Notes under the pieces: generated by a model
Seen by the model: the letters and a program-made list of their open reading frames with translations, nothing else
What the model was told of the DNA's origin: nothing
The model's database searches: none
Shown here: positions 7,829-46,488 of the stretch, piece by piece
How positions within the stretch are numbered: position 1 is the stretch's first letter
How the letters are laid out: every line of letters begins with the position of its first letter
Program-made: the position numbers and the translations under genes
Virus record (IMG/VR): IMGVR_UViG_3300031651_000003
Span: 1-46,488 of that record
Length of the DNA stretch: 46,488 bases
From: a virus
Direction: 5' to 3' (one strand)

Positions 7829-7857
7829 ATGATAGAGGAACATCCCACGTTTGTCAA
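7829..7857 (-). promoter_or_regulatory. Leftward early promoter (TTGACA, 17 bp, TATCAT)
   Basis: Read leftward: -35 TTGACA (7852-7857), a 17-bp spacer, and -10 TATCAT (7829-7834). It drives the 7815-808 operon. Only 18 bp separate its -35 from the divergent promoter's -35, so one bound protein can affect both. Confidence 0.8.
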
Positions 7858-7875
7858 GCCCTTTTCGACAATCTC

Positions 7876-7904
7876 TTGACTTTTTTGCGACGATGGCTTA
7901 ATAT
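7876..7904 (+). promoter_or_regulatory. Rightward repressor promoter (TTGACT, 17 bp, TAATAT)
   Basis: The -35 is TTGACT at 7876-7881 and the -10 TAATAT at 7899-7904. Transcription would start near 7911, immediately before GGAGAG and the ATG at 7922, giving a very short leader for the HTH gene. TTGTC/GACAA inverted elements lie between the two divergent promoters. Confidence 0.75.
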
Positions 7905-7921: not shown

Positions 7922-8365
7922 ATGACTGACCATTTCCAGGACTGGATCACAACGCGTCTCGAAGAGTGGCTAGCAAGGGAAGGCGGCGACCAGCGGGGCA
8001 AGGTTCACCGTTTCGCTATGGCGGTCGGCGTCCAACCTTCCACCGTAAGCCAGTGGCTACGTGCCGCTGCTCAGCCCGACGAGTTCAACTGCCTACGACT
8101 GTCAAAGGCGTTGGCTTTGCCAGTTGAAGAGGTCCGGGCAGCAGCCGGCAGGCTTAGGGTAGTGGCCGAAACGCCAGCCACCTACCAAACCGATGATGAT
8201 CTGCTAAACGACTTCCGCCACGCTCTCGGCCCAGACTACGACTTCATTGCATCGTTAGAACCGAAGGAAAGACAACGGCTCCTTCTTGCCTGGGCCGCCC
8301 AGATGAGCCACCACCTACAACTGTACCGCCGAATCAGGGAACTAGAGACGCCCGAGACCACCTAA
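7922..8365 (+). CDS. HTH (XRE/CI-like) repressor candidate
   Basis: The product has 147 residues. A helix-turn-helix occupies about residues 27-75: KVHRFAMAVGVQPSTVSQWL is the turn and recognition helix, followed by NCLRLSKALALPVEEV. The C-terminal half is helical and charged, probably for dimerisation, and lacks the Ser/Lys autoprotease pattern of LexA or lambda CI. It sits beside divergent promoters, attP and integrase, the usual place of an immunity repressor. Binding to the sequence between the two promoters is an inference. Confidence 0.75.
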   Translation: MTDHFQDWITTRLEEWLAREGGDQRGKVHRFAMAVGVQPSTVSQWLRAAAQPDEFNCLRLSKALALPVEEVRAAAGRLRVVAETPATYQTDDDLLNDFRHALGPDYDFIASLEPKERQRLLLAWAAQMSHHLQLYRRIRELETPETT

Positions 8366-8377
8366 CTTTCGGGGGTT

Positions 8378-8464
8378 TCTGCCGCTTATCATGTCTGCCG
8401 TTTACCGCATCCCGCCGCCCAAATGGGGTTCAGGAGGTCTGGGGTTCAAATCCCCACGCCCCGA
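8378..8464 (+). other. attP: Phage attachment site attP: tRNA-Pro(GGG) 3' half plus arm-type repeats
   Basis: Bases 8424-8464 read as the 3' half of a tRNA. An anticodon loop with T33 and anticodon GGG is followed by stem TCAGG, variable AGGTC, T-arm TGGGG-TTCAAAT-CCCCA, acceptor strand CGCCCCG and discriminator A. CCA is not encoded. No 5' half is present, so this is not a working tRNA but the identity segment that rebuilds a host tRNA-Pro after integration. Just upstream, TCTGCCGCTTA (8378-8388) and TCTGCCGTTTA (8394-8404) repeat with a 16-bp period and could be integrase arm sites. The integrase gene follows 372 bases downstream. Confidence 0.85.
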
Positions 8465-8547
8465 CTTTGCTACTTGGCCGCACCGCCTATCACGACCGCT
8501 CTACGCATCCGCACAGCACATCGCCCCAACTGAAAGGCTGTCTGGGC

Positions 8548-8576
8548 TTGACACAAGACCGCCATCGTGCTATGAT
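8548..8576 (+). promoter_or_regulatory. Integrase operon promoter (TTGACA, 17 bp, TATGAT)
   Basis: The -35 TTGACA is at 8548-8553 and the -10 TATGAT at 8571-8576, with a 17-bp spacer. Transcription would begin near 8583 and give a short leader with AAAGGA before the ATG at 8597. It lies between attP and int, so it would stay joined to int after integration only if the crossover is upstream of it. Confidence 0.8.
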
Positions 8577-8596: not shown

Positions 8597-8839
8597 ATGA
8601 CAACGAAGGAGATACTGAAAGTCCTAGAAGACGCATACGAGAACTGTTGTGACATCTATTGGAAAGAACTGGAACCTATTATCGTCGAACTACGGCGCAG
8701 GGAGCAAAGCCCGGTCGCCCAACGCCTAGATGCTATGATAGGGGAGGCCTTAAAGCACTTCACCAGCGAAGACGATTTGGGACGAACCCTCAACGTGCTA
8801 CTGGACAACCTCCACCAACTTCGAGACGAACTGCCATGA
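8597..8839 (+). CDS. Small acidic helical protein upstream of integrase
   Basis: The product has 80 residues, from ATG 8597 with AAAGGA upstream. It is nearly all helix with many acidic residues (MTTKEILKVLEDAYENCC, LNVLLDNLHQLRDEL). No DNA-binding motif is evident. The stop overlaps the integrase ATG (ATGA), so the two are co-translated. A recombination-directionality or integrase-control role is possible but unproven. Confidence 0.65.
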   Translation: MTTKEILKVLEDAYENCCDIYWKELEPIIVELRRREQSPVAQRLDAMIGEALKHFTSEDDLGRTLNVLLDNLHQLRDELP

Positions 8840-9738
8840 AACCAATTCCTTGCCGCCTTGACACCTACCTACCCGCCTTCGCCCTCATGCTTGAGACGGA
8901 GGTCGCCCCGCGCACGGTCGAAGGCTACACGCAAAGCCTTGAGGGGTTTCTTCGCTACGCACAACGGGACGGCCTACCTACCGACCCGCAAGCGCTGACC
9001 GCCGACCACATCCGCCACTTCCTGCACGACCTCGCCGCCGCCGGCCGCAGTGCCAATACGCTTCGGCAATACCACGCCAGCCTCCGACGGTTCTTCAAGT
9101 GGCTCGCGGCTGAGGGCGACATCGTTGATAACCCGATGGATCGTATTCATATGCCGCGTCCGCCAGAGAAGGTCATTGACCCGTTTACGTCTGACGAACT
9201 CCAACGCCTCAACACCGCTGCCAAGATGCAGGGTCGCCGCATACTGGCCCTACGTGATTACGCCTTGCTCCTGATCCTCGAAGACACTGGCGCCCGTGCC
9301 AGCGAGATCACAACGCTCACACTTGACCACATCGACTGGCGACAGCGGACTTTCCGATTGATTGGAAAGGGTAACAGGGAAGGGCTAGTGGCAGCGTCGG
9401 GCAAGACGATGCGAGCGGTCGCCGCTTACCTCAAAGCGCGTCGCGTCGTCAATGACAGAGCATTCGTCACCGACCGAGGCCAAGCCATGAACCGTAACTC
9501 GCTCCTCCAAGTACTCCGGCGTATCGGCTTGCGGGCTGGCGTTGAGAACGTTCACACACACAGGTTTCGACATACCTACGGAGATATGTTCCTTGAGGCC
9601 GGCGGTCAGGAGGGAGATTTGCAAGCCGCTTTCCGCCACTCGACAAGCGCCATGACCAGGCGCTATACTCGTGCAAGGCAGACGGGCCGAGCACTGGAAG
9701 CGATGCGGCGCCTGAGCCCAGTGGAGAGGTTAAGATGA
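8836..9738 (+). CDS. int: Tyrosine recombinase (integrase)
   Basis: The product has 300 residues. ATG 8836 overlaps the previous stop; the frame extends upstream but inside that gene. An N-terminal SAM-like core-binding domain (about 5-95) precedes the catalytic domain. The active-site set is complete: R154 (TGARASE), K178 (GKGNRE), H242-x-x-R245 (HRFRH), H268 (RHST) and Y277 (RRYTRA), with the standard nine residues between H268 and Y277. It catalyses integration between attP at 8424-8464 and the host tRNA-Pro gene. An 18-bp motif copy overlaps the RLIGKG codons. Confidence 0.95.
   Translation: MKPIPCRLDTYLPAFALMLETEVAPRTVEGYTQSLEGFLRYAQRDGLPTDPQALTADHIRHFLHDLAAAGRSANTLRQYHASLRRFFKWLAAEGDIVDNPMDRIHMPRPPEKVIDPFTSDELQRLNTAAKMQGRRILALRDYALLLILEDTGARASEITTLTLDHIDWRQRTFRLIGKGNREGLVAASGKTMRAVAAYLKARRVVNDRAFVTDRGQAMNRNSLLQVLRRIGLRAGVENVHTHRFRHTYGDMFLEAGGQEGDLQAAFRHSTSAMTRRYTRARQTGRALEAMRRLSPVERLR
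9352..9369 (+). repeat. Dispersed 18-bp motif, copy 3
   Basis: TTCCGATTGATTGGAAAG, inside int where it encodes part of the conserved FRLIGKG segment. It may be coincidental, because that protein motif is conserved in the family. Confidence 0.45.
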
Positions 9739-18011: not shown

Positions 18012-18326
18012 TCAATCCTCGCAAAAAATAATCACGATTTGTCGCGCCGTTCTTGCCGCGTCCTTGCCGTTGTGAGGTAGGCGGATAGCAGGCGAGAGCT
18101 GGCCCCACAGTTTCTCGGCGCGTTCGGCTCCCAGTTCGTCCCAGAAAGCACCGATAATCCCGCCAGCTAGCATGTGGCTCGGCAAGCCGTGTGTTGCGGC
18201 TCTTACCGTCTCGGCAGCTACGGCCGCGAGTGCCTCTTGGTGGGCTTCCCAGCCCTTCGGGTCGAAGATTTGCCAGCCTTGCCGTTCAAGCGTGGCCGCA
18301 CAGTTATGACGAAATGGGTTTCTCAT
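18012..18326 (-). CDS. Hypothetical protein
   Basis: The product has 104 residues starting MRNPFRHNCAATL at 18326, overlapping the upstream stop (ATGA). It is mostly helical (GWEAHQEALAAVAAETVRAA, ELGAERAEKLWGQL). No catalytic motif is visible. It is the last gene before the internal promoter. Confidence 0.55.
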   Translation of the reverse strand: MRNPFRHNCAATLERQGWQIFDPKGWEAHQEALAAVAAETVRAATHGLPSHMLAGGIIGAFWDELGAERAEKLWGQLSPAIRLPHNGKDAARTARQIVIIFCED

Positions 18327-19114
18327 GCTTGTGCCTCCTCTAGCGTTCCTTGCCATAAAACGTTTCCGTCGGGACCGCCGTGAAGTCGCCAGGTTTTACC
18401 AGCGAGCGAAGGAATGAGGCCCATGTGCCAGAGATCAACGGCAGCCCTGAACGGATAGTCGTTGGTTGTTCCATTCGCCCATTTCCAGTTCTTGATGCCA
18501 GGGAAGAGTGAGCCAAAGTAAGCCCCCACGCTATCCCACACGCTGGGCCCCACGCTATCCCACACGCTATCCCACACGCTGGGCCCCACGCTATCCCACA
18601 CGCTATCCCACACGCTGGCCCACACGCTATCCCACACTCTATCCCACACGCTGGCCCCCACGCTGGCCCACACTCTATCCCACACGCTATCCCTCACGCT
18701 GGCCCCCACGCTATCCCTCACGCTGGCCCACTCCTTTAGCAGGCGTATGTGCCGTTGGGTAATCTTCTTGGGTGGCTTAATGTGGAACGGGTGAACGGGC
18801 TTAATGGCCTCGCTGTAGTTCCAGCCAAACAGCCTATCCAGGTGGCTCACCTCTTCCAAGACCCTCAATTCGTGGAAGCCAAACTTTTTACCGTCGCCTG
18901 TTACTGGCTCGCCCTCAACGACGAAAGCGCGGCAAGGAATGGAGGCACCAACGAAAGAGTCGTTTGGGTTAGGGCAGGCGTGGAGGACGCCCGGGGCGCA
19001 GAGGTTGTGGCGGCGGCGCTTCTTGGCGATCTTCACCGTCTTGCCTACAGCCCATTTGGTTGTGTGATCGTAGAAACTGCGGCCTTGTAGGTCGGTCAAC
19101 TTGTATGCCTTCAT
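18323..19114 (-). CDS. Protein with WDSV/GASV-type tandem repeats
   Basis: The product has 263 residues starting MKAYKLTDLQG at 19114, behind GAGGCG; the open frame further upstream has no start signal. The N-terminal 125 residues form a DUF-like domain (LTDLQGRSFYDHTTKWAVGK, CPNPNDSFVGASIPCRAFVV) found in phage proteins that carry such repeats. Residues about 127-198 are tetrapeptide repeats of WDSV, WASV, RDSV, GASV and GPSV, coded by a near-identical 12-base DNA repeat. They may form a coil like pentapeptide-repeat helices. A C-terminal domain follows. The function is unknown; the length is likely to vary by slippage. Confidence 0.7.
   Translation of the reverse strand: MKAYKLTDLQGRSFYDHTTKWAVGKTVKIAKKRRRHNLCAPGVLHACPNPNDSFVGASIPCRAFVVEGEPVTGDGKKFGFHELRVLEEVSHLDRLFGWNYSEAIKPVHPFHIKPPKKITQRHIRLLKEWASVRDSVGASVRDSVWDRVWASVGASVWDRVWDSVWASVWDSVWDSVGPSVWDSVWDSVGPSVWDSVGAYFGSLFPGIKNWKWANGTTNDYPFRAAVDLWHMGLIPSLAGKTWRLHGGPDGNVLWQGTLEEAQA
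18520..18735 (-). repeat. 12-bp minisatellite inside a coding region
   Basis: About 18 near-identical 12-base units occur; on the + strand they read as variants of CACGCTATCCCA and CACGCTGGCCCA. Unit length is a multiple of three, so gain or loss keeps the frame. Confidence 0.85.
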
Positions 19115-19151
19115 CTTATCGCCTCCTCGTTTGATACCCAATTCCCTCCTC

Positions 19152-19514
19152 TTATTCAAGGCCCTTCTCATCTGGCCCGGGTTCCAAGAACTTCCCAGAC
19201 AATCCCCCTTGGCCCACGACGCCCATCGGCGTATGGAACGTGGGCTCAAAGAGCCGCGTCGCCCCACAATGTCGGCAGCGGCCCTCGTTGCAGTTATCGA
19301 GAGAGCCTAGTCTGCCGAGCAGCCAGTGATGAGCACCAGTGGGCGATTGTTTACAGAGGCCGTTGCTCATCGCACGCACCAGCCTAACCGGACGATGGCG
19401 GGTCACCGGCCGCTTGGCCCCTGGCCGGTGCATGAAACAGTACCCATCGGGTTCTGCGGGCTTATGGCAGCGAGCACCGCTATTCGTTATCGCTTTGCAT
19501 GTTATCGAGGGCAC
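19152..19514 (-). CDS. Double zinc-finger protein
   Basis: The product has 120 residues from GTG 19514. The N-terminal finger has C6, C16, C26 and H29 (CKAITNSGARCHKPAEPDGYC, then FMH) of the kind found in small DUF5763-like proteins. A second Cys/His group follows after an Arg-rich linker: CKQSPTGAHHW and CRHCGATRLF. An internal ATG before the second finger could give a shorter form. It probably binds nucleic acid. Confidence 0.65.
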   Translation of the reverse strand: MPSITCKAITNSGARCHKPAEPDGYCFMHRPGAKRPVTRHRPVRLVRAMSNGLCKQSPTGAHHWLLGRLGSLDNCNEGRCRHCGATRLFEPTFHTPMGVVGQGGLSGKFLEPGPDEKGLE

Positions 19515-23316: not shown

Positions 23317-23391
23317 CGCAGGATAGAGAAGCGGTATCTCACCTGGCTCATAACTAGGAGATCGCGGGTTCGAGTCCCGCTCCTGCTACCA
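23317..23391 (+). tRNA. tRNA with CAT anticodon (Met or Ile2)
   Basis: A complete cloverleaf: acceptor CGCAGGA/TCCTGCT with the first pair mismatched (C1-T72), TA, D-arm GAGA-AGCGGTA-TCTC, anticodon arm CCTGG-CTCATAA-CTAGG, variable AGATC, T-arm GCGGG-TTCGAGT-CCCGC, discriminator A and encoded CCA. It lacks the three G-C pairs at the anticodon stem base of initiator tRNA, although the unpaired first position recalls an initiator. Elongator Met or lysidine-type Ile are the likely identities. Confidence 0.9.
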
Positions 23392-24143: not shown

Positions 24144-24398
24144 ATGCCCAAGCGCAAGGGCAGTGGGGCCGTCATGCGCGATATGTTCGAGATCGCGCAG
24201 AGATACGGCCCGGAGAGCATGGAGACGCTGGGCAAGGCGGCGGCAGACGGCGACGTGGATGCGGCCAAGGCCCTACAGCGGTTCTTCACGGACTTTATGA
24301 AGCTGATGGGTGAGGGCGAGGCATCGGACGTGCTCAAATTGATACAAGGTATTAGGAGTGGAAAGCGACCTCGCGGTAGGCCAAGGAATACCCGTTGA
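24144..24398 (+). CDS. Putative small terminase subunit or TerL partner
   Basis: The product has 84 residues. It is all helical with AAADGDVDAAKALQRFFTDF and basic ends (MPKRKGSG, SGKRPRGRPRNTR). Position directly before the large terminase and 41 bases of overlap with it suggest a small terminase, although it is shorter than usual and no HTH is certain. DNA-binding tails of the AT-hook type (RPRGRPR) are visible. Confidence 0.45.
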   Translation: MPKRKGSGAVMRDMFEIAQRYGPESMETLGKAAADGDVDAAKALQRFFTDFMKLMGEGEASDVLKLIQGIRSGKRPRGRPRNTR

Positions 24399-25854
24399 GG
24401 AGTGGCGGGCAGGTATCGGCCTGACCGCGCCAATATGGGAAGAGAAGCTCGCTCTGTGGGAGCGGGTGACAATTCCCTCAGCCGAGACAGCTATCACGAG
24501 GGAAACGGGTGGGTTCACGCCGAACTTCCTCATTGAGTTCTGCCTGAAACACCCGGCCGTCGCCAAGTTACTGTCGGGCGGACCGCGTAGCGGCAAGTCG
24601 CTCGGCATCGGGATGGACTTGGCGGCGTGGGCTATCCACTCGGAGCTGATATGGCTAGTGGCGGACACATACGCCGGGACTAGACGTGAGTTCCGTTACT
24701 TGGCTGATGCGCTGGACTCACTACGACTCGTAAGGCCGAGCACCATTTCGTTTCCGCGCAAGAAGGATGAGCCGTGCTCGATGCAGACGAAGTGGGGTTG
24801 CCAGATAGAAACCCTATCGCTGGCGGACGCGCGGCGCATCGCGGCCTATGGCCCGGACGTGATCGCGGTCTGTGAACCGGGGCTCCTTACCAAAGACATA
24901 GTGTGGCGTTTCCGGGAGCGATTGTCCGGCCGGCGGGGCTACCTCCTGATGGCGGGGAGTTTCGAGGAAGACATCGGCTGGATGGCTAAGGTCTGGGACG
25001 AATGGAAGGCTTGGCCGAACGCTGAGGGAAAGTCGTTCATCTGCCCGTCGTGGATGAACCGCTACCTATACCCAGGTGGCAAGAGGGACCCGGCGATCCA
25101 GGCAATGCGGCGGAACATGACCCGCCACGACTTTCTGCTAAGGGTGGCAGGGGTTCCGACGATGCCGCCGGAGGTCATCTTCTCAGAGACGTTTCAGCCT
25201 GACAGACGACGCGAGGACTCACAGATACGGCAAGCGGACAGGAAACGCATCTTGGAGGACCGCGACCTTCTGGTGGAGATAGCGATAGACCCGGGCTACT
25301 CAAGCGGGGTATACGCGGTGCACGCGATAGCTTGGGATGGTGAGCAGGGATGGGTATTCGACGAGATTCGCAAGGAAGGCGCTCTCCACTCCGAGATGAT
25401 CGGCTTGGCGATGTCACGCTGGTGGTGGCACCGGGTATCAGGTGGAACGCTCGATCCGTTTGCGGGCACGTCGCACATCTTCGGCTCGTCAAGCCCACAG
25501 GAGGTGTGGGCAAGGCCGCCGTCTAGCGTTCGGTTGCGGTGCGATTATCGCGTAGGCATCGAGGATGGTATAGAACGGCACAAGTGGTTTCTACGCGATC
25601 CGATCACGGGTCAAGTTCGGCTATGGACAGACCCGTGCAACGAAGGACTTATTCAAGAATACCAATCGTGGCGCCGAGTGCGGGTGCAAGAGGGTGTGGA
25701 CAAGACAGCACAGCCATTGAAACGCGGCTGCGATAGCATCAAGGCCCTGACAGGCTGGCTGGTGGATTGCTACATGCGACGGATGCGACCTAGACAGGAC
25801 TATGGGATAGAGGCCATTGGGCCTACGCGCACACATGCGCCGAGATGGAGGTAG
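24358..25854 (+). CDS. terL: Terminase large subunit
   Basis: The product has 498 residues from GTG 24358, overlapping the previous gene. The ATPase domain has Walker A GGPRSGKS (74-81) and Walker B-like VIAVCE (168-173). The C-terminal nuclease domain starts with IAIDPGYSS, D311 being the first metal ligand. It translocates DNA into the procapsid and cuts it. The Walker B Cys before Glu is less common. The start is not certain, because AGGA is directly adjacent; a downstream start is possible. Confidence 0.85.
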   Translation: MESDLAVGQGIPVEEWRAGIGLTAPIWEEKLALWERVTIPSAETAITRETGGFTPNFLIEFCLKHPAVAKLLSGGPRSGKSLGIGMDLAAWAIHSELIWLVADTYAGTRREFRYLADALDSLRLVRPSTISFPRKKDEPCSMQTKWGCQIETLSLADARRIAAYGPDVIAVCEPGLLTKDIVWRFRERLSGRRGYLLMAGSFEEDIGWMAKVWDEWKAWPNAEGKSFICPSWMNRYLYPGGKRDPAIQAMRRNMTRHDFLLRVAGVPTMPPEVIFSETFQPDRRREDSQIRQADRKRILEDRDLLVEIAIDPGYSSGVYAVHAIAWDGEQGWVFDEIRKEGALHSEMIGLAMSRWWWHRVSGGTLDPFAGTSHIFGSSSPQEVWARPPSSVRLRCDYRVGIEDGIERHKWFLRDPITGQVRLWTDPCNEGLIQEYQSWRRVRVQEGVDKTAQPLKRGCDSIKALTGWLVDCYMRRMRPRQDYGIEAIGPTRTHAPRWR

Positions 25855-38384: not shown

Positions 38385-39356
38385 ATGGCACTAACACTAG
38401 CTGACTACGCCGCCTTGCAGGAGACCAAACTCCGCAAGGGGGTAATAGATGCCCTGGCGGACTTCACCCGCATGGGCACGCTGTTGCCGTTTCAGTCAAC
38501 CGACGCGCTGGACGCCACGGTGGTCTACCGTTCTGGCTACCCAGCCATCAGTTGGCGGAACGTCGGCGGCACACCTGGCGAGGACAAGGCGACCTTCGCC
38601 CAGCGCACCGAGGCGCTGAAGGCCCTGTCCGCGAAGATCACCGTTGACCGCCTGGTACTCAAGGCCAAGAACACTGTCCAGGACCTCCGTAAGGCGCAAC
38701 TCGACTCGCATGTCGAGTCCATCGCTATGGAGTTCAACGACATGTTCATCAACGGCGACCCGACCGCAGACGAGGCCCAGCCTGCTGGCATCAGGTATCG
38801 TATGGATAACGAGGCGCGCTTCGCCGACCAGACCATTTCGCCCCCGAGCGCTGCCTACGACGTGGACCTTGACAGCGCTCACATCCACGTCTGGCTTGAC
38901 CTCATCCACGAGGCCATCGACCGCGTTGGCGGCAAGCCGTCGGCGATCATCCTGAACCGCCAGACGAAGCTACGGCTCACGGGCGTTGCCCGACGCGAGA
39001 GACAATATCGGGTCGACAAAGATCAGTGGGATCGTCGGGTTGAGAACTTTGACGGCATCCCCTTGATCGACCTTGGCCCGAAGCTCACTGGGGCACAAAA
39101 GGGCGCTGCTTACGCTGCGACCGACCAGATTCTTCTCAACAACGCCTACGGCGCAAGCTCCAACGCCAGCGAGATGTACGTCGTGCGGTTCGGGGACGAC
39201 TACCTGACTGGCATTCAGAATGGCGACGTGACGGTCGAAGGTTTCGCCAAGGACCCTGGTAACCCCCAGAACTTGGTGGCCTACGTCGAGTGGGTCTGCA
39301 CCATCGGCATCTTTCGACCCGATGCTATCTGTCGCATCGACGAACTCTTGATCTAG
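38385..39356 (+). CDS. Major capsid protein
   Basis: The product has 323 residues from ATG 38385 with AGAGGTGAAAC upstream. It has an N-terminal arm (ALTLADYAALQETKLRKGVI), an extended loop region and a spine helix (DLIHEAIDRVGG), and a mixed alpha-beta core with SAIILNRQTKLRLTG and GFAKDPGNPQNL, as in HK97-fold coat proteins of short-tailed phages. It follows the scaffold, as expected. Confidence 0.8.
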   Translation: MALTLADYAALQETKLRKGVIDALADFTRMGTLLPFQSTDALDATVVYRSGYPAISWRNVGGTPGEDKATFAQRTEALKALSAKITVDRLVLKAKNTVQDLRKAQLDSHVESIAMEFNDMFINGDPTADEAQPAGIRYRMDNEARFADQTISPPSAAYDVDLDSAHIHVWLDLIHEAIDRVGGKPSAIILNRQTKLRLTGVARRERQYRVDKDQWDRRVENFDGIPLIDLGPKLTGAQKGAAYAATDQILLNNAYGASSNASEMYVVRFGDDYLTGIQNGDVTVEGFAKDPGNPQNLVAYVEWVCTIGIFRPDAICRIDELLI

Positions 39357-45657: not shown

Positions 45658-46488
45658 TGCCTGCCATACAGCGCGTGAGTCAAACGAAGGACGCGATAGA
45701 GATAGACCTGGCCCTGCCCGACATGGCGCGAGCGGCAGGCCTGGGGATGAAGCCTGTGGCCGTGTCGCCCCACAAAAGCGGGTATGCTCGGCTCCGCATT
45801 CCCGCGAAGGGAAAGAAACCTGCCCAGCTTGTCGAAACGCTCAACTCCCACCTGCCGCCGGACCTCATTGACTTCGAGGCGGTTCTTGATGAACAGGGCC
45901 GTCTGACCTTTACCAACCGCTGGCAGGAGGAACCGAAGCCTGCGCCCAAGAGTCCTGGCACGTGTCTGTTCTTCGATGGGGTTGAGAGCACTGATACGAC
46001 ATTCTGGACTAGCAGCAGCGGCTCATGGGCTGTCATCTCCAAGCTGGGGCGCTACTGGTGGCGCAACGACAACACAGGGCGTCTGGCGACCCATTACTAC
46101 GGCGCAGACGGTAGTACGACATACCTTACCGACCTGTATGTCCGCTCGAACTTCCTCTTTGACGCCGAGCCTGACGGGGATAAGCCGCTCTTCAGCATCC
46201 TGGCCAGTGGAGACGATTACATACGGGCCTACTACAACTCCGACAGGCACCTGTGCCTGCTGTTCAACACCAGCACGGATGAGGGCAGCGTGACCCTGGC
46301 ACTGGACACGGTATACCGCATTGAGATGCACGTCTGGGAAATGTCTGGCGAGGGAGACCCCTGGGGTGCCACCTTACGTCTGTACTCAGCGGACAACGTC
46401 CTGCTGGAGACGCTGGAAATCCTGAACGAGCAAAACCCAGCGTGGACGGCCCAGTTCGTCGCCTGGGGAAGCACTGTCCTCCACGGCG
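45657..46488 (+). CDS. Tail fibre, N-terminal part (continues at 1-768)
   Basis: ATG 45657 overlaps the stop of the preceding fibre gene. The reading frame leaves the window at 46488 and is the same frame that continues from base 1; the combined product has 490 residues. The N-terminal 90 residues are mixed alpha-beta (DLALPDMARAAGLGMKPVAV) and anchor-like; from about residue 100 a beta-sandwich begins (CLFFDGVESTDTTFW, SSSGSWAVISKLGRYWW). It is the most likely receptor-binding protein of the phage. Confidence 0.75.
   Translation, partial: MPAIQRVSQTKDAIEIDLALPDMARAAGLGMKPVAVSPHKSGYARLRIPAKGKKPAQLVETLNSHLPPDLIDFEAVLDEQGRLTFTNRWQEEPKPAPKSPGTCLFFDGVESTDTTFWTSSSGSWAVISKLGRYWWRNDNTGRLATHYYGADGSTTYLTDLYVRSNFLFDAEPDGDKPLFSILASGDDYIRAYYNSDRHLCLLFNTSTDEGSVTLALDTVYRIEMHVWEMSGEGDPWGATLRLYSADNVLLETLEILNEQNPAWTAQFVAWGSTVLHG
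46362..46488. repeat. Second copy of the 127-bp terminal overlap
   Basis: Identical to bases 1-127; see that entry. Only one copy belongs to the circular genome. Confidence 0.95.

Follow-up and report, generated by a model that had tools for sequence, protein, structure and literature searches.

Half of a tRNA gene lying between the repressor and the integrase of a virus raises the question of whether it is the attachment site (attP) of a temperate phage and, if so, into which gene, at which position and in which host the phage integrates. We addressed this question in the window, that is, the whole stretch of DNA analyzed here, a record of 46,488 bases. Its first 127 bases are identical to its last 127 and a 375-codon open frame crosses the end join, so the window is complete: a genome of 46,361 bp, circular or circularly permuted, though IMG/VR classes the ends as linear.

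Results

Gene neighborhood of the tRNA half

The terminal repeat and the genes and promoter-like sites around the locus are as follows.

1-127, + strand: terminal direct repeat of 127 bp, identical to 46362-46488
7829-7857, - strand: divergent promoter-like TTGACA-17-TATCAT, toward the leftward early genes
7876-7904, + strand: promoter-like TTGACT-17-TAATAT, 5' of the repressor
7922-8365, + strand: HTH repressor, 147 aa (PF01381; phrog_3949, transcriptional repressor)
8548-8576, + strand: promoter-like TTGACA-17-TATGAT (11/12), 5' of the 80-aa ORF and the integrase
8597-8839, + strand: acidic 80-aa ORF, whose stop overlaps the integrase start
8836-9738, + strand: XerD-like tyrosine integrase, 300 aa (PF00589, PF02899, match to XerD 1a0p)

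The order, all on the + strand, is repressor, spacer, tRNA half, promoter-like site, 80-aa ORF and integrase, the last starting 372 bp downstream of the tRNA half. An earlier note on this DNA had placed the segment between a repressor and an integrase, and the PF01381 repressor and the tyrosine integrase indeed flank it. The sequence GGGCTTGACA occurs at 7852-7861 and 8544-8553, in opposite orientation, in the -35 regions of the leftward and the integrase promoter-like sites, and the pair is a possible shared operator.

Elsewhere in the genome, the phage has a whole tRNA-Met (CAT) gene of its own, CCA included, at 23317-23391, and a dense array of near-identical repeats with a period of 12 (also 24 and 36) occupies approximately 18522-18710, within an ORF on the - strand (18323-19267). 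For the terminase and the major head protein (24358-25854 and 38385-39356), known phages offer only remote relatives (25-27%), and no close relative of either was found in the viral contigs scanned.

Architecture and reconstitution of the tRNA half

The sequence at 8423-8464 reads as a tRNA-Pro(GGG) 3' half that opens with the anticodon loop and closes with the discriminator base; its parts, after the five phage bases to their left, are as follows.

8418-8422, + strand: CCCAA, putative phage-side core half-site, 3/5 bases like the host stem CCTGA
8423-8429, + strand: anticodon loop ATGGGGT, anticodon GGG; putative 7-bp overlap (strand-exchange) region
8430-8434, + strand: 3' anticodon stem TCAGG, putative second core half-site
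8435-8439, + strand: variable loop AGGTC
8440-8456, + strand: T-arm TGGGG-TTCAAAT-CCCCA
8457-8463, + strand: acceptor CGCCCCG
8464, + strand: discriminator A (A73), without CCA

The block spans tRNA positions 32-73, and base 8422 (A31) also fits a tRNA. Besides the GGG anticodon, the half has T33, G37, the T loop and a T stem of five pairs. The 44 bases at 8378-8421 are not tRNA, and the start at 8378 given in the earlier note is too early; the tRNA block runs from 8422 or 8423 to 8464. The parts themselves read as that note had described them, and its statement that the 5' half is missing agrees with both the lack of a matching 5' strand at this locus and the lack of an ARAGORN call. As expected for a half, neither ARAGORN nor Rfam at curated thresholds made a call on 8423-8464; the Rfam tRNA model gave the half by itself 12.8 bits (E 6.4), which is too weak.

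When 8423-8464 was set in silico behind the tRNA-Pro 5' halves of Planctomycetota, Omnitrophota, Chloroflexus and Gemmatimonadota, ARAGORN called tRNA-Pro(GGG) in all four cases. As a control, one host 5' half was set before each of 92,722 42-nt pieces of the phage, from both strands. Apart from two stray cases and the tRNA-Met of the phage itself, all calls fell in a cluster at 8417-8426; a tRNA-Pro(GGG) with the whole 42-nt half in register arose solely from the piece that begins at 8423. The tRNA half at this locus is not a product of chance.

The bases CTTTGC follow A73. Their first four, CTTT (8465-8468), also follow the discriminator base in five Pro(GGG) halves near related integrases (L136, L140, L144, L152 and L164), and the shared block may thus extend a few bases beyond the tRNA.

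The same tRNA half in known phages and viral contigs

In Alteromonas phage P24, Paraburkholderia phage IPK and the E. coli phages Flotzy and Eeyore, a tRNA-Pro(GGG) 3' half is likewise present, and its first bases are the same ATGGGG. Their halves are 77-86% identical to the present one and are followed by CCA, which is absent here. An annotated integrase lies near the half in P24, Flotzy and Eeyore, the IPK record being unannotated, and the Flotzy half is present in 5375/5426 E. coli genomes. Integration into tRNA-Pro(GGG) with reconstitution of the gene has been described for phage PhiLM21 of Sinorhizobium (PMC5537653), a different phage in a different host that shares with our proposal the target gene, the anticodon and the rebuilding of the tRNA.

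Among viral contigs, no match was found to an exact 31-mer or to the T stem plus acceptor. A relaxed 42-mer pattern, the one also applied to the species genomes below, gave nine matches (L108-L116), all consisting of the 3' half with the 5' half missing, in which identity runs a few bases further left than in this phage and retains CTGA of the 5' stem. Five of the integrases of these contigs form a separate group with a shared HARxSP-like C-terminal tail.

The integrase and its relatives

The catalytic residues R154, K178, H242, R245, H268 and Y277 are all present in the integrase, giving the R-K-H-R-H-Y set of the PF00589 domain. Its best solved relative is E. coli XerD (1a0p, E 1.3e-22), likewise a two-domain tyrosine recombinase, but a housekeeping enzyme of dimer resolution. 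The domain search found only the SAM-like and catalytic domains and no arm-binding domain, in contrast to P24 and Flotzy, whose integrases have the lambda arm-binding domain PF09003. The phage integrase aligns with its phage relatives to residue 299-300, whereas matches of the XerC/D type stop near residue 280.

Of 80 viral relatives, 25 have the integrase preceded, on the same strand, by a canonical tRNA half. The tRNAs include several Pro isoacceptors (Pro(GGG) among them), Val, Arg, Met and Asn, and identity again starts at the anticodon loop. T-arm matches in L151, L155, L156, L179, L185 and L187 were excluded from these 25 for wrong strand, wrong register or an adjoining tRNA cluster, and seemingly intact tRNAs upstream of the integrases of L155, L161, L162, L165 and L174 were not counted as intact since their 5' parts are un-tRNA-like. 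The five bases left of the loop (positions 27-31) match their stem partner at 16, 14, 14, 9 and 16 of the 25 loci, and 3/5 do so in this phage. Such stem-like matches are more frequent than expected by chance, as would suit a 7-bp overlap flanked by an imperfect core half-site.

An integrated counterpart in Chloroflexota

Among the 20 best Chloroflexota relatives of the integrase, 14 have an intact tRNA gene within approximately 350 nt of the integrase start, on the same strand in 10 of the 14. In one Chloroflexota genome (G373), contig C3 carries an intact tRNA-Pro(GGG) gene with the stem CCTGA/TCAGG and no CCA, followed by the integrase, with 149 nt between the T arm and the integrase. That genome has just one more copy of the 3' half; it is on contig C9, lacks a 5' half and adjoins an HTH/S24 repressor. 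We infer that C3 and C9 are the two ends of one prophage, whose locus is divided between the two contigs. Circularized, this prophage would read repressor, tRNA half, integrase, which is the gene order of our phage.

The two also share a related arm-less integrase, the stem TCAGG, the absence of CCA and a major head protein of phrog_212, which is encoded with a terminase on the integrase contig and belongs to the same family as the head protein of our phage. However, the G373 repressor has an S24 domain, the integrases are just 26% identical, and no match to the other proteins of our phage was found in G373 (tblastn, E 1e-3). Judged by the identity of the integrases, the G373 prophage is a distant counterpart and not this phage.

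Two further Chloroflexota loci were inspected. The two-copy locus in L083, which first looked like a 4-kb element, has genes for BipA and an ice-binding protein but none for an integrase, and was not used as an integrated example. Contig C1 of G355 (1.47-Mb, Chloroflexota) has three equal-scoring relatives of the integrase (one copy in L212), with no tRNA half beside the one examined.

Search for the host

The exact 42-mer (8423-8464) did not occur in 84,980 species genomes, and allowing as many as 3 mismatches gave no match either among sampled genomes of Planctomycetota, Chloroflexota (the phylum and one class), Gemmatimonadota and Omnitrophota. A relaxed pattern, with six T-stem bases and one T-loop base free and the rest fixed, matched 104 stretches, mainly in Chloroflexota and Planctomycetota with a few in Gemmatimonadota and Omnitrophota. 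Nearly all of them were intact tRNA-Pro genes with the 5' stem RCCTGA. The nearest host genes differed from the 42-mer by 4 mismatches, all in the T stem; in the search pattern that found them, the other bases were fixed. No prophage or attL/attR pair of this very phage was found in these searches.

The host tRNA gene probably lacks an encoded CCA, because A73 is followed by CTTTGC, whereas known phages of CCA-encoding hosts carry CCA after the half. In the integrase tree, a group with support 0.86 unites the phage with most Chloroflexota integrases sampled and some of the viral ones; the Planctomycetota and Gemmatimonadota matches fall outside it. The latter matches, which align only to approximately residue 280, were judged to be of the XerC/D type. 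The tree has several weak nodes and was built without phyla such as Actinomycetota. On the sequence comparisons made here, we regard Chloroflexota as the likely host phylum, although with only reasonable confidence.

Discussion

Our analysis indicates, with high confidence, that this temperate phage has its attP common core at 8423-8464 and uses a tRNA-Pro(GGG) gene of the host for integration, with strand exchange probably in the anticodon loop. The identity of the segment as attP and the tRNA that it targets are secure. The earlier note had proposed both, and they are borne out by the reconstitution, the known phages with the same half, the 25 viral relatives and the two-ended Chloroflexota prophage. 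The site is an ordinary, well-formed attP in the 3' half of tRNA-Pro(GGG), for which PhiLM21 is a precedent.

In the proposed mechanism, the integrase would bind two imperfectly symmetric half-sites flanking the 7-nt loop ATGGGGT, namely, CCCAA on the phage side or CCTGA in the host to the left, and TCAGG in both to the right. Strand exchange would take place inside the loop; a 7-bp overlap with core half-sites at anticodon loops has been described for tyrosine recombinases (PMC8371274). Integration would swap the host 3' half for the identical phage half. An intact tRNA gene would remain at attL, immediately 5' of the integrase, and the 3' half given up by the host would come to lie at attR, beside the repressor. 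The circular record, with attP within it, corresponds to the free form, and relatives show the same layout in both the free and the integrated states. The target gene in the phage's own host is presumably of the same kind.

Exchange could instead occur further along the tRNA, in its T arm or at its 3' end, the block serving only to restore the gene. The anticodon arm, the T arm and the 3' end are all known as sublocations used by tRNA-gene integrases (PMC8371274), and the crossover cannot be read from a single attP. However, a T-arm exchange would have no need for identity back to base 32, and identity starts at the anticodon loop not only in this phage but also in the four known phages and the related viruses. 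In addition, the five phage-side bases are stem-like beyond chance, as an imperfect core half-site would be. We therefore consider exchange outside the anticodon loop improbable. Still less credit is due to the idea that the phage once encoded a tRNA-Pro gene of which this segment is what decay has left, with no role in integration. The phage does carry a full tRNA gene of its own, the tRNA-Met gene, and some known phages have whole tRNA-Pro genes, but the structure of the half is flawless over bases 32-73 and breaks off abruptly at the loop, where decay would not end; the halves in unrelated phages and beside related integrases break off at this very base too. This origin is highly improbable.

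The region to the left of the core bears on the type of attP. Two copies of TCTGCCGYTTA lie within it.

8378-8388, + strand: direct repeat, copy 1, TCTGCCGCTTA
8394-8404, + strand: direct repeat, copy 2, TCTGCCGTTTA

Both repeats reported in the earlier note exist, but the arm-site role suggested for them is unlikely, because the integrase is XerD-like and has no arm-binding domain. A classical lambda-type attP, in which the N-terminus of the integrase binds arm-type sites at 8378-8404, would account for two near-identical 11-bp direct repeats, 16 bp apart and 18 bp left of the core, and P24 and Flotzy, which use the same tRNA, do have arm-binding integrases of the lambda type. In the present integrase, however, the SAM-like core-binding domain begins at residue 17 and the alignment to XerD starts at residue 7. 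The pair itself is only marginally unusual, since an equally good pair arose in 3.9% of spacer shuffles and similar pairs occur elsewhere in the genome. A lambda-type arrangement is thus very unlikely, and we return to an arm-less attP with exchange in the anticodon loop. The repeats are possible candidates for the site of an excision factor or of the repressor.

Our results also give a view of the integrase family. It is an even question whether the integrase and its relatives make up a large lineage, arm-less, XerD-like, for the most part unnamed and frequent in Chloroflexota, whose members all recombine in the anticodon loop and, carried in an unchanging cassette of repressor, tRNA 3' half and integrase, have come to use many different tRNA genes (Pro, Val, Arg, Met, Asn, Thr, Ile and others). 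If this is true, the lineage would allow the switching of tRNA targets by integrases to be tested directly.

For this complete phage genome, the attP establishes a temperate lifestyle, shows which gene is the target of integration and narrows the range of hosts. The viral collection searched had no recognizable relative of its terminase or its major head protein. Because related viruses share this attP layout across many tRNAs, tRNA halves beside arm-less XerD-like integrases could predict hosts for phages of the poorly cultured Chloroflexota.
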